This document shows, one piece after another, positions 36,435-41,804 of a stretch of 64,000 nucleotides of DNA; the first letter of the stretch is position 1; each line of letters opens with the position of its first letter. The DNA lies in assembly GCF_003628145.1 (NCBI RefSeq), contig NZ_RBZV01000003.1, forward strand, positions 248,001-312,000, read 5' to 3'. The translations under genes and the position numbers were made by a program. The notes under the pieces are model-generated. The model had not been told where the DNA came from. It searched no databases and saw nothing but the letters and a program-made list of their open reading frames with translations. The DNA is from Trinickia fusca. GTDB lineage: Bacteria; Pseudomonadota; Gammaproteobacteria; Burkholderiales; Burkholderiaceae.

Positions 36435-37415
36435 ATGACTGAATCCGCCGCCCCCGCGCTTGCCGCGCCCTTTCCGTGCGCCCGCTTCATCAAGGAGATC
36501 GGGCGCGGCCCGAACGGCGCGCGCGCACTATCCGCGCAAGACACCTATGCGCTCTACGAAGCGATGCTCGACGGCCGCGTGTCGGACCTCGAACTGGGTG
36601 CCGTGCTGCTTGCCTATCGCTTGAAAGGCGAGAGCGCCGACGAGCTCGCCGCGATGCTGGCGGCCGCGCATGCGTCGCTGCAACGCGTCCGCGTCGATGC
36701 GCAAGCCTGCCGGCCCGTGTCGATTCCGAGCTACAACGGCGCGCGCAAGCAAGCGAACCTCGTGCCGCTGCTCGCGCTGCTGCTGGCGCGTGTTGGGGTG
36801 CCGACGCTCGTGCACGGCGTCACCGAGGACCCGGGCCGCGTGACGAGCGCCGAGATCTTCAAGCAGCTCGGCATCGAACCGGCCACGTCGCATGCCGACA
36901 TCGAAGCGAGCCTTGCCATGCGCCGGCTCGCGTTCGCGCCGGTCGATACGCTGGCGCCGAAGCTTGCGCGTCTGCTGTCGCTACGCCGCATCATGGGCGT
37001 GCGCAATTCGACGCATACGCTCGTGAAGCTCCTGCAGCCGTTCGCAGCGCCCGGGCTGAGACTCGTCAACTACACCCACCCCGAGTATCGCGAGAGCCTT
37101 GCCGCGCTGTTTTTGGGCCATCCCGAGGCTGCCGAGGGCGGTGCGCTGCTGGCGCGCGGCACTGAGGGCGAAGCCGTTGCCGATACGCGCCGGCAAGTGC
37201 AAGTCGACTGGCTGCACGACGGCCTCAGCGAGACGCTCGCCGCACCCGAGCGCTCGTCGCCCGACGCCGAGCCAGTCGATCTGCCCGAAGCGCGCGATGC
37301 CGCGACGACGGCCGCCTGGACCGAAGCCGCGCTGCGCGGCGACGCACCGGTGCCGCCGACGTTGGCGCGTCAGGTCGACTTGATCGTCGGCATCGTTCGC
37401 GCTCGGCCCGGTTGA
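36435..37415 (+). CDS. ybiB: YbiB-like DNA-binding protein (glycosyltransferase family 3 fold)
   Basis: The 326-residue product resembles anthranilate phosphoribosyltransferase but belongs to the YbiB group, reported to bind DNA and respond to stress rather than make tryptophan. It has an N-terminal helical domain (SAQDTYALYEAMLDGRVSD) and a glycosyltransferase-3 core (SIPSYNGARKQANLVPLLAL). The TrpD-type GTGGD loop is absent and replaced by SYNGARK. Its stop codon lies inside the -35 box that serves leuA. Confidence 0.85.
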   Translation: MTESAAPALAAPFPCARFIKEIGRGPNGARALSAQDTYALYEAMLDGRVSDLELGAVLLAYRLKGESADELAAMLAAAHASLQRVRVDAQACRPVSIPSYNGARKQANLVPLLALLLARVGVPTLVHGVTEDPGRVTSAEIFKQLGIEPATSHADIEASLAMRRLAFAPVDTLAPKLARLLSLRRIMGVRNSTHTLVKLLQPFAAPGLRLVNYTHPEYRESLAALFLGHPEAAEGGALLARGTEGEAVADTRRQVQVDWLHDGLSETLAAPERSSPDAEPVDLPEARDAATTAAWTEAALRGDAPVPPTLARQVDLIVGIVRARPG

Positions 37416-37441
37416 CAGCGCCTTGCGCCCTGTCATACATT
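37412..37441 (+). promoter_or_regulatory. Promoter of the leuA leader
   Basis: A perfect -35 TTGACA (37412-37417), an 18-bp spacer and TACATT (37436-37441). The start point would be about 37448-37449, at the first base of the leader ORF ATG. The ybiB TGA stop is embedded in the -35. Confidence 0.6.
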
Positions 37442-37448
37442 GCACCTC

Positions 37449-37523
37449 ATGCGTTCCTTTCCGAACACCCTCCGAATTACCTCCGGCCGCCTAGCGCGGC
37501 CGCTATCGCTACGACTAGCGTAA
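37449..37523 (+). CDS. Putative leucine-attenuator leader peptide of leuA
   Basis: A 24-codon ORF (ATG 37449, TAA 37521) lies in the 347-bp leuA leader. Five of 24 codons are Leu, and four of them (codons 15, 19, 21 and 23) are CTA, which is scarce in this GC-rich genome. The peptide is also basic (Arg at 2, 9, 14, 17 and 22). The ORF begins at the predicted transcription start, so translation may be leaderless. A GC-rich hairpin overlaps codons 12-18 and further stems follow the stop. The design matches a leader peptide whose translation senses leucyl-tRNA. It is too short for ordinary gene finders. Confidence 0.6.
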   Translation: MRSFPNTLRITSGRLARPLSLRLA

Positions 37524-37549
37524 GCCAGACGTAGCGCCGCGCGCCGTCT
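37484..37549 (+). promoter_or_regulatory. Mutually exclusive hairpins of the leuA leader
   Basis: Stem A: CGGCCGC (37484-37490) with GCGGCCG (37496-37502), loop of 5 nt. Stem B: CGCTA (37501-37505) with TAGCG (37516-37520); it shares bases with stem A, so both cannot form. Stem C: AGACG (37527-37531) with CGTCT (37545-37549) around GCGC/GCGC. There is no T run, so the downstream control may be Rho-dependent or translational. Confidence 0.5.
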
Positions 37550-37762
37550 ACGCGGTCTCCTCCCGCAGTTCGCAGCAAGCCACACGCTGCTCCCGTTTCA
37601 TCCCAACCGCAGTTCCTTCTACCAACCGTAGTCGTCAGCATTCGGCCGAGTACCGCTCGGACGGATCGCGAAAGCGCCGGCGCCTTGCACGCGCCCAGGC
37701 AGGTTCAGCCAGCCGCTCGACCCTGTTGCCTTTCGCAGACGACCCGACGAACAAGGTTCGCC

Positions 37763-39418
37763 ATGCTCGACAACCCTGCTGAGAAGTACCAGCCGTTCCC
37801 GCCCGTGCACATTGCCGGGCGCAACTGGCCCAACCGAACGATCGCGCAAGCGCCGATCTGGATGAGCACCGATCTGCGCGACGGCAATCAGGCACTTATC
37901 GAGCCGATGAGTGCCGCGCAGAAGCTCGAGTTCTTCGAGATGCTGGTCGCGATCGGCTTCAAGGAAATCGAAGTCGGCTTCCCCTCCGCCTCGCAAACCG
38001 ATTTCGATTTCGTTCGCATGCTGATCGAGGAAAAGCGCATTCCCGACGACGTGACGATCGAAGTGCTCGTCCAATCGCGCGAAGACCTGATCGCGCGCAC
38101 TTTCGAAGCGCTCGACGGCGTGCCGCGCGCGATCGTGCATCTCTACAACGCGATCTGCCCGTCGTTCCGGCGCATCGTGTTCAACGCATCGAAAGACGAG
38201 GTCAAGGCGCTCGCGACCGAAGGCACGCGGCTCATCAAGGAGCACGCGCAGCGCCGCCCCGAGACACACTGGACGTTCCAATACTCGCCCGAGACGTTCA
38301 GCATGACCGAGCTGTCGTTCGCGCGCGAAGTCTGCGACGCGGTCACGCAACTGTGGCGTCCCACCCGCGAGCACAAGATGATCGTGAATCTGCCGGCCAC
38401 CGTCGAAGCCGCGACGCCCAACGTGTTCGCCGATCAGATCGAATGGATGGACCGCAACCTCGCCTATCGCGACAGCATCGTGCTGTCCGTACATCCGCAC
38501 AACGATCGCGGCACCGCCGTCGCCGCGGCCGAGCTTGCGCTGCTTGCCGGCGCCGACCGCATCGAAGGGTGCCTGTTCGGCAACGGCGAACGCACCGGCA
38601 ACGTCGATCTCGTCACGCTCGCGCTGAATCTGTACACGCAGGGCATCGACCCGCGGCTCGACTTCTCCGACATCGATGGCGTGCGCCGTGTCGTCGAACG
38701 CTGCAACGCGATCGCCGTGCATCCGCGTCACCCGTATGCGGGCGACCTGGTCTTCACCGCGTTTTCGGGCTCGCATCAGGACGCGATCCGCAAGGGCTTC
38801 GCGCAGCAGGCGCGTCACGCACGGTGGGAAGTGCCCTATCTGCCGATCGATCCGGCCGATCTCGGTCGCAGCTACGACGCCGTGATCCGCGTCAACAGCC
38901 AATCGGGCAAAGGCGGGGCGACGTACCTACTCGAACGCGGCCTCGGCTTCGCACCGCCGCGCCGCGTGCAGATCGAATTCAGCCATGCCATCCAACGCAG
39001 GGCGGACGATTCGGGGTCCGAAGTAACAAGCGACGAAATCTGCGATCTGTTCGCGCGCGAATATCTGAACGTGCCCGGGCCGGCCGCACGCGTCGACGCG
39101 ACGAGTGTGCATTGGCGGCATCGTGAAATCGCGCGCATCGTGCCCGGCGCGACGGCGGCCGACGTGCAAGCGTGTACCGATACTCTCGCCCAGGCTTTCG
39201 CCGCGGCAACCGGCGAAGTGCTCGAGGTGTGTGCGTATGAAACGGTGCGCGCCGCCGATGGACGCACCGCTGCATTCATCGGCTGTCGTGTCGCGGGACA
39301 ACCGTTGCGCTATGGCGCCGGCCTGCATGAGGATCTGGCGACGGCCGCCGCCGATGCGCTCGTTGCCGCCGTGAACCGGCTCGATCTCGATTGCGGCGAA
39401 CGCCGGGCCGCCGCGTAA
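37763..39418 (+). CDS. leuA: 2-isopropylmalate synthase (long form)
   Basis: LeuA condenses acetyl-CoA and 2-oxoisovalerate, the first step of leucine synthesis. The 551-residue product is of the LeuA type 2 group. The catalytic TIM barrel has the DRDG-like motif [11 protein letters not shown] and metal-binding [29 protein letters not shown] is the signature, and a C-terminal LeuA dimer/allosteric domain covers about residues 420-545. The start [12 protein letters not shown] at 37763 is the family N-terminus. It stands alone, unlinked to leuBCD, and has the attenuator-like leader described separately. Confidence 0.96.
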
Positions 39419-40868: not shown

Positions 40869-41804
40869 GTGAGCAACGCAATGACCCTTCCGAACACCCT
40901 GAGCCCGGCGCCTGCCAAGGCCGCTCCGGCAGGTGCTCTGACGCTCGCGTCATTCTCGATGCTGCCTGGCCAGCTGGGCAACATCGACGCCTACATCCAG
41001 GCAGTCAACCGCATCCCGATGCTGACGGCCGACGAGGAGCGGCAATTCGCCACCGAATACCGCGAGCACAACAACCTCGAGTCGGCGCGCCGTCTCGTGC
41101 TGTCGCACCTGCGGCTCGTCGTGTCGATCGCCCGTAACTACCTCGGCTACGGCCTGCCGCACGCCGACCTGATCCAGGAAGGCAACATCGGGCTCATGAA
41201 GGCCGTCAAGCGCTTCGATCCCGAGCAGAACGTGCGCCTCGTGTCGTACGCGATGCACTGGATCAAGGCGGAGATCCACGAGCACATCCTGCGCAACTGG
41301 CGCATGGTCAAGGTGGCCACGACGAAGGCGCAGCGCAAGCTGTTCTTCAATCTGCGCAGCCACAAGCAGGGGCTTCAGTCGTTCACGCCTGAGGAAATCG
41401 ACGGTCTCGCCAAGGAACTCAACGTCAAGCGCGAAGAAGTGACGGAGATGGAGACGCGGCTGTCGGGCGGCGACATTGCGCTCGAAGGGCACGTCGAGGA
41501 CGGTGAGGAATCGTATGCGCCGATCGCCTATCTGGCCGATCCGCACAGCGAGCCGACGGCCGTGCTCGCTGCACGCCAGCGCGACCAACTGCAAACGGAC
41601 GGCATCGCCCAAGCGCTCGACTCGCTCGACGCACGCAGCCGCCGCATCATCGAAGCACGCTGGCTCAACGTGGCCGACGACGGCTCGGGCGGCTCGACGC
41701 TGCATGAGCTGGCCGACGAATTCGGCGTATCGGCCGAGCGGATTCGCCAGATCGAAGCGAGCGCCATGAAGAAGATGCGCACCGCACTCGCTGCATACGC
41801 GTAA
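40869..41804 (+). CDS. rpoH: RNA polymerase sigma-32 (heat-shock) factor
   Basis: Sigma-32 directs heat-shock transcription. The 311-residue product has region 2 (NLESARRLVLSHLRLVVSIARNYLGYG and LIQEGNIGLMKAVKRFDP). The RpoH box is QRKLFFNLRSHKQ near residue 157, which confirms RpoH over other sigmas. The region 4 helix-turn-helix is TLHELADEFGVSAERIRQIE. AAGGAG is 8 nt from a GTG at 40869; an ATG four codons on is an alternative. A perfect CIRCE element upstream implies HrcA repression. Confidence 0.97.
   Translation: MSNAMTLPNTLSPAPAKAAPAGALTLASFSMLPGQLGNIDAYIQAVNRIPMLTADEERQFATEYREHNNLESARRLVLSHLRLVVSIARNYLGYGLPHADLIQEGNIGLMKAVKRFDPEQNVRLVSYAMHWIKAEIHEHILRNWRMVKVATTKAQRKLFFNLRSHKQGLQSFTPEEIDGLAKELNVKREEVTEMETRLSGGDIALEGHVEDGEESYAPIAYLADPHSEPTAVLAARQRDQLQTDGIAQALDSLDARSRRIIEARWLNVADDGSGGSTLHELADEFGVSAERIRQIEASAMKKMRTALAAYA

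Follow-up and report, generated by a model that had tools for sequence, protein, structure and literature searches.

A conserved leucine leader peptide with a predicted leaderless start upstream of leuA in Trinickia fusca and related Burkholderiaceae

A leuA gene of Trinickia fusca is preceded by a short open reading frame (ORF) rich in rare CTA leucine codons, which lies so close behind a promoter that its mRNA would begin at the ORF's own ATG. We interpret this arrangement as a leucine-responsive leader-peptide attenuator of leuA, with a rough probability of 0.6 for the reading as a whole. The analysis was centered on a window of 64,000 nucleotides (contig NZ_RBZV01000003.1, positions 248,001 to 312,000) from the 6.10 Mb genome. 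In this window, leuA (37763..39418, plus strand) encodes 2-isopropylmalate synthase in its PRK03739/leuA_yeast form (NF002991, 825.4 bits, cut-off 455; TIGR00970, 727 bits, cut-off 697.4). A first-pass annotation had proposed leucine-sensing attenuation of leuA at this site; its leader-peptide sensor with a leaderless start is retained here, whereas the exclusive hairpins that were to act as the switch are not.

The promoter is of the sigma-70 type (37412..37441, plus strand) and consists of TTGACA (37412–37417), an 18-nt spacer and TACATT (37436–37441), matching the consensus at 10 of 12 positions. A scan of 601 bases yielded no second site of this kind (0.1 in shuffled sequences), and its −35 element overlaps the stop codon of ybiB, the gene 5' of the leader. 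The leader ATG (37449) follows 7 nt 3' of the −10 element, so that a start at the usual distance would place the 5' end on or beside the ATG, just as the first-pass annotation had read promoter and start. TTGACA is present in all 80 leaders of this kind (see below), and the gap between the best-scoring −10 element and the ATG amounts to 7 nt in 50 of them, 6 nt in 21, 8 nt in eight and 9 nt in one; for the eight leaders with an 8-nt gap, a TAATGT located 6 nt before the ATG fits equally well (seen for L016). Assuming the usual start distance, none of the 80 leaders has room for a Shine-Dalgarno sequence. A strict leaderless promoter pattern occurred at four sites in the genome, including the leuA leader, and its reversed control at none. 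Judged from promoter position alone, the geometry is that of a start at the ATG, and these data support the prediction that transcription begins at the leader's own start codon.

The leader ORF itself (MRSFPNTLRITSGRLARPLSLRLA; 37449..37523, plus strand) comprises 24 codons with CTA at codons 15, 19, 21 and 23, as described before. CTA is indeed rare: 46 long ORFs of the window, picked mechanically by length and GC3, contain 19 CTA among 16,894 codons, which corresponds to 1.1 per 1000 codons and 1.0% of leucine codons. The probability of finding at least four CTA in 23 codons is approximately 1.4e-8 based on codon use and 9e-7 based on trinucleotide frequency. No other of the 713 ATG-started stretches of 10–60 codons in the window contains four or more CTA. 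Across the genome, the pattern CTA-N3-CTA-N3-CTA was found at seven sites: the leader, five open frames of 53–308 codons and a frame of 28 codons. It would miss a leader whose CTA codons are spaced differently, as in leuA1 (see below).

Aligning leuA leaders, a check that the first-pass annotation had suggested, provided clear evidence for conservation; the outcome named there as a refutation, that the ORF or its CTA codons would not be conserved, did not occur. An ORF whose peptide ends in LSLRLA or a near variant was present upstream of leuA in 80 of 111 loci, which were taken from the best 80 of 493 GTDB matches and from related genomes (56 of 61 of the latter, own genome counted, had some match); this locus set is probably redundant in part, as some genomes appear to occur twice (e.g., L004 and L033). 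The ORF was found in all 66 loci from Burkholderia, Paraburkholderia, Caballeronia and Trinickia (L033–L098) among the best 80 of the 493 matches, and 74 of the 80 promoter-plus-leader stretches were distinct. The 31 loci without an LSLRLA-type peptide were the leuA1 paralogue (L002), 16 more distant loci (L017–L032) and 14 loci (L099–L112) from Cupriavidus, Ralstonia, Collimonas, Glaciimonas, Pseudomonas and one other member of the Burkholderiaceae. The four CTA codons were invariant in all 48 distinct ORFs, while none of the 63 leucine codons in the first 12 codon positions was CTA. Length varied by whole codons (23, 24 and 25 codons in 10, 54 and 16 of the 80 leaders, respectively), whereas the distance from the ORF's stop to leuA fell into each of the three frames about equally often (28, 27 and 25 loci). 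Invariant CTA codons and whole-codon length changes next to a frame-free downstream spacing are the signature of a translated ORF. We thus consider it very likely, from these sequence comparisons, that the leader ORF is translated and that its rare CTA codons serve as the leucine sensor.

The leader is also predicted to be structured, as its fold was better than those of shuffled sequences (z = −2.54; 0 of 100 as good). Covariation was assessed in 33 representatives, to which 74 leaders were reduced by dereplication (similarity score 0.93); the input was restricted to the plus strand, which apparently removed the six of the 80 leaders that lie on minus-strand loci. Stem P (37485–37490/37496–37501) carries CTA codon 15 in its loop and is paired in 97.3% of cells, with one pair changed on both sides in one of the 33 sequences. 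Stem A (37507–37515/37528–37536; 96.0% paired) contains CTA codons 21 and 23 and has the stop codon in its loop; its pair at columns 69/91 is UG, UA, AU or CG in 27 of the 33 sequences and unpaired in six, among them the window, which has an A.A mismatch. Stem B (37537–37541/37551–37555; 93.4% paired) abuts stem A and has two pairs with both-sides changes, in two of the 33 sequences each. CTA 15, a loop codon of stem P, and CTA 19, which separates P from A, are both invariant although they lie outside the supported stems, so that pairing in these stems does not account for them. All four stems, including stem C described below, are on the plus strand.

Together, stems P, A and B were paired in 95.6% of cells and contained 10 double-change cells, compared to 2.6 in shuffled alignments (0 of 500 as high), although kinship alone can push related sequences above shuffles. 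The number of pairs with a double change was only weakly elevated (4 versus 1.7 shuffled; 6 of 500 as high), and the number of pair types was not (15 versus 14.3; 200 of 500 as high). Sliding the partners by 1–3 columns reduced pairing to 19.5–53.8%, with a slide of −2 still yielding eight double-change cells. The third stem that had been noticed behind the stop codon corresponds to stem B, where no terminator-like site was found. A conserved fourth stem, C (~37640..37666; 78.4% paired), had not been described earlier. It follows an AGTCGTC block (37630–37637) that is invariant or nearly so in the 33 representatives and is explained by no supported stem. In stem C, pair 235/249 is CG in 24 and UA in nine of the 33 sequences, whereas 231/253 and 232/252, in the lower part of the stem, are paired in just 11 and 17 sequences, respectively; stem C and a 2-bp extension of B together had 25 double-change cells versus 11.1 in shuffles.

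The two base-sharing, mutually exclusive hairpins of the first-pass annotation stood in part: overlapping alternatives do exist, but P and A do not overlap. One of these alternatives, 37494–37500/37536–37542, overlaps the supported stems and shows zero covariation; the other is a small hairpin read from the sequence (CGCTA-CGAC-TAGCG, 37507–37520). The covarying helices P, A, B and upper C can all coexist, and exclusivity is confined to A versus the 2-bp extension of B. Several pairings were rejected. The alternative pairings 1:4 and 2:3 were paired in 93.0% of cells, but had no double change and nothing beyond shuffles. A long-range pairing of ACGACTA in the leader with TAGTCGT downstream is mismatched in relatives that carry ACGTCTA (by eye), and a 4-bp pairing proposed by RNAalifold (columns 61–64/259–262) joins near-invariant, hence uninformative columns.

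To describe how a ribosome on the leader might alter this structure, seven states were folded in a thermodynamic model, in which the ribosome is an unpaired footprint and pseudoknots lie outside the model. With no ribosome, stems P (0.68), A (0.93) and B (0.80) were predicted to coexist. A ribosome at CTA 15 removed P and left A and B, while at CTA 19, 21 or 23 P was lost, A fell from 0.93 to 0.00 and the extension of B rose from 0.02 to 0.54–0.61. Stem A was also lost (0.00) when the ribosome occupied the stop codon, in which case P was kept (0.74) and the B extension reached 0.22; the loss of A is therefore not peculiar to stalling. Stem B persisted at 0.78–0.89 across all seven states. In the model, ribosome position thus acts on stems P and A rather than on a terminator–antiterminator pair.

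Behind stem B lies a C-rich, G-poor and mostly unpaired stretch of 84 nt (37557..37640, plus strand; 43% C, 17% G) with repeated GYAGY motifs, which composition and folding mark as a candidate rut site. Its C excess was matched by 112 of the 127,834 windows compared on both strands, its own 18 included, at seven places counting itself, and the 33 related sequences contained 97 GYAGY motifs versus 3.1 in mononucleotide shuffles. The window thus has, 3' of the leader ORF, the kind of unstructured C-rich stretch expected of a Rho-type attenuator. Such a stretch was rejected as a universal feature: the best 60-nt C excess, 18 in the window, was at most 9 in 13 of the 25 leaders compared, of which those of the leuA1 type contributed 70 nt only. 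The 12 codons after the ATG, on the other hand, were rich in C and poor in G in each of the 25 leaders (mean C minus G of 11.2 in 36 nt, minimum 6); the corresponding value in 45 control ORFs was 1.9 (sd 5.2), with three reaching 11.2, the controls all coming from the window and the leaders from many genomes. This C-rich start of the ORF would suit either a leaderless 5' end that stays open or one portion of a Rho site.

Based on these observations, attenuation could proceed as follows. When the tRNA-Leu reading CTA is uncharged, the ribosome would stall at CTA 15–23, as the comparison of relatives suggests, and at CTA 19, 21 or 23 stem A is modelled to disappear while stem B becomes longer. 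The remaining steps are the least certain. With ample leucine, the ribosome may complete the ORF and leave, allowing stems P, A and B to fold; Rho might then load on the C-rich stretch (37557–37640) and end transcription before leuA, whereas stalled and queued ribosomes might hinder Rho, so that leuA would be made. We hold this Rho-dependent readout tentatively. The C-rich stretch was about equally open in all ribosome states (0.61–0.65 unpaired), and the model accordingly reveals no route by which stalling would block Rho. An elaboration of the Rho-dependent readout, which we regard as unlikely, is that leaderless leucine leaders are common across the Burkholderiales, at both leuA paralogues, and that in them the C-rich initial half of the ORF and its C-rich counterpart past B make up a single split Rho site joined by P-A-B. 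Ribosomes stalled and queued on the ORF would cover half of this site and thereby turn leuA on with no intrinsic terminator.

The first-pass annotation had left the choice between Rho and a translational readout. A readout at the level of translation or mRNA stability, in which a stalled ribosome shields the leaderless 5' end or makes the ribosome-binding site of leuA available, appears doubtful to us, although the 5' end of a leaderless mRNA does sit beneath the ribosome. The unpaired GYAGY repeats resemble the consensus of RNase E sites and may suit a stability mechanism; coupling through NusG is another conceivable element of the readout. In addition, the actinobacterial LEU element is proposed to work via the leuA ribosome-binding site (PMC1262725). 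However, the modelled accessibility of the leuA start was flat at 0.43–0.45 across six ribosome states (17 of the 33 representatives), and for this reason Rho is judged likelier than translation. Masking of the leuA start was hence dropped as the switch. Pairing of the LEU type was likewise not evident, since the start region paired with the leader ORF in only 1.3–1.5 of 21 nt at any ribosome position (17 leaders, pseudoknot-free folding).

A classical attenuator, in which 37494–37500/37536–37542 would be the antiterminator and stem B an intrinsic terminator, is less plausible still. The antiterminator pairing is possible in 28–32 of the 33 sequences per pair and belongs to the best fold of the window RNA, but it has no both-sides change and did not exceed 0.12 in the model, while B formed in every state. 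Moreover, no T run follows stem B in the window, in agreement with the first-pass annotation, and no intrinsic terminator was found behind B or C. T runs of at least five within 110 nt of the stop codon were found in 31 of 80 leaders, always 61–70 nt past the stop and with no stem ahead of them (by eye). An intrinsic terminator with an exclusive antiterminator was therefore not found at this locus.

Different leaders of similar design occur at other leuA genes. The second leuA of the genome, of the leuA1 type, has its own CTA-rich leader (MSIHAFPLLSLLAGASLRALALARASR; minus strand, upstream of 3069 in L002 and near 41409–41448 of G000:C9), which begins 7 nt past a TATAGT. The stricter promoter scan reported no site for it because its −35 element is poor. 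At least 17 of 21 loci of this paralogue have a CTA-containing leader with TATAGT 6–7 nt before the ATG; three lack one, and one more was covered in part. The end of the leuA1 leader ORF overlaps a hairpin that is followed by TGATCGTTTTCG, which is terminator-like (3 sites in the region versus 0.8 shuffled). In an order-wide survey of 98 loci with the window's leuA type (75 from 90 matches, of which 11 were already in the set and four were dropped as partial or second copies, plus five stretches, 17 related-genome loci and the window's own), a CTA-rich upstream ORF preceded leuA on the sense strand in 28 loci and on the antisense strand in none; 70 loci had no such ORF. Two of the 28 encode the same peptide as the window leader and 26 encode others. 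A promoter 6–7 nt before an ATG (4–10 nt allowed) was found for 17 of the 28, a number favored by the script, which among ATGs sharing a stop preferred this geometry; one of the 17 (L122) may be a chance pick. Distant relatives and the second leuA thus carry unrelated CTA-rich peptides with similar start geometry.

A second type of leader, with the motif CTACCGATCGGTTG, a peptide containing ..LPIGC.. and long stems thereafter, lies directly before leuA in 10 of the 98 survey loci (L017, L020, L021, L024, L120–L123, L125 and L126) and in eight of the 14 distant loci L099–L112 (L099–L104, L106 and L107). Some of these loci also have a CTA-rich first leader (e.g., L017, L102, L103 and L125). A few of these loci have T runs further on, but a scan of L104 yielded no terminator-like site. 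In Paraburkholderia and Caballeronia loci (e.g., L040 and L034), a GAGGG and an ATG stand past stem C, which are absent in the window and may mark the beginning of a remnant of this second leader type.

That the ORF is no sensor, but a chance reading frame across a structured RNA or small RNA, is highly improbable: stems P and A do share sequence with the ORF, which restricts some of its CTA codons, yet CTA 15 and 19 are kept while unpaired, indels stay in frame, and different peptides, found in other lineages as well as at the second leuA, have retained CTA codons and the start geometry.

The leader has no counterpart in Rfam (release 15), where a tRNA was the sole match above the gathering score in the window and no leader family was found; the leader itself had one weak match (RF02233, 13.7 bits, cut-off 80), 14 other loci had none, and leader copies on plasmids were not matched either. 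Among known systems, the enterobacterial leuL attenuator has a short leader peptide whose leucine codons include the rare CTA and which precedes a gene of leucine biosynthesis. The leader described here is alike in its leucine-codon peptide and in stems that overlap the end of the ORF. It differs in its predicted lack of a Shine-Dalgarno sequence and a 5' UTR, in having no detected intrinsic terminator and no Rfam match, and in its other type of leuA, which is located after ybiB. Mycobacterial leaderless polycysteine ORFs act as attenuators and are similar as leaderless codon-run leaders, but sense cysteine in another phylum. The first-pass annotation considered a leaderless start unusual for an attenuator, which is fair for enterics. 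Leaderless leader ORFs are nevertheless known: Sinorhizobium meliloti trpL is one and yields the attenuator RNA rnTrpL (PMC10117765). Its ORF lies at the first bases of the transcript ahead of a biosynthesis gene, as is predicted for the leader described here; trpL differs by sensing tryptophan, by belonging to another bacterial class and by its defined attenuator RNA. The actinobacterial LEU element (Seliverstov 2005; PMC1262725) likewise has a leuA leader peptide with leucine codons and no obvious terminator, but its defining features are a pseudoknot and the pairing of the leucine codons with the leuA Shine-Dalgarno sequence; the leuA leader of Corynebacterium glutamicum has four leucine codons in a row (PMC4046766). 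For Burkholderia or other Betaproteobacteria, the open-access literature yielded no description of a leuA leader, most subscription literature lying outside the search. The main texts of two transcriptome papers on B. cenocepacia do not mention leuA (PMC4603805, PMC5688073); the former gives 72 genes whose transcripts start at the start codon and 42 that start no more than 10 nt from it (24 of these are tRNAs), and the latter tabulates 82 short 5' UTRs.

Hence, we conclude that leuA of T. fusca has a real, conserved and probably leaderless leucine leader, whose readout we tentatively take to be Rho-dependent. A leader kept in dozens of species with neither a 5' UTR nor a terminator would offer a clean test of how the stalling of a ribosome can be sensed when there is no terminator hairpin, and the unrelated but matching leader at the second leuA strengthens its value as a test case. 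Furthermore, the leader ORF would be an additional small gene in many genomes.
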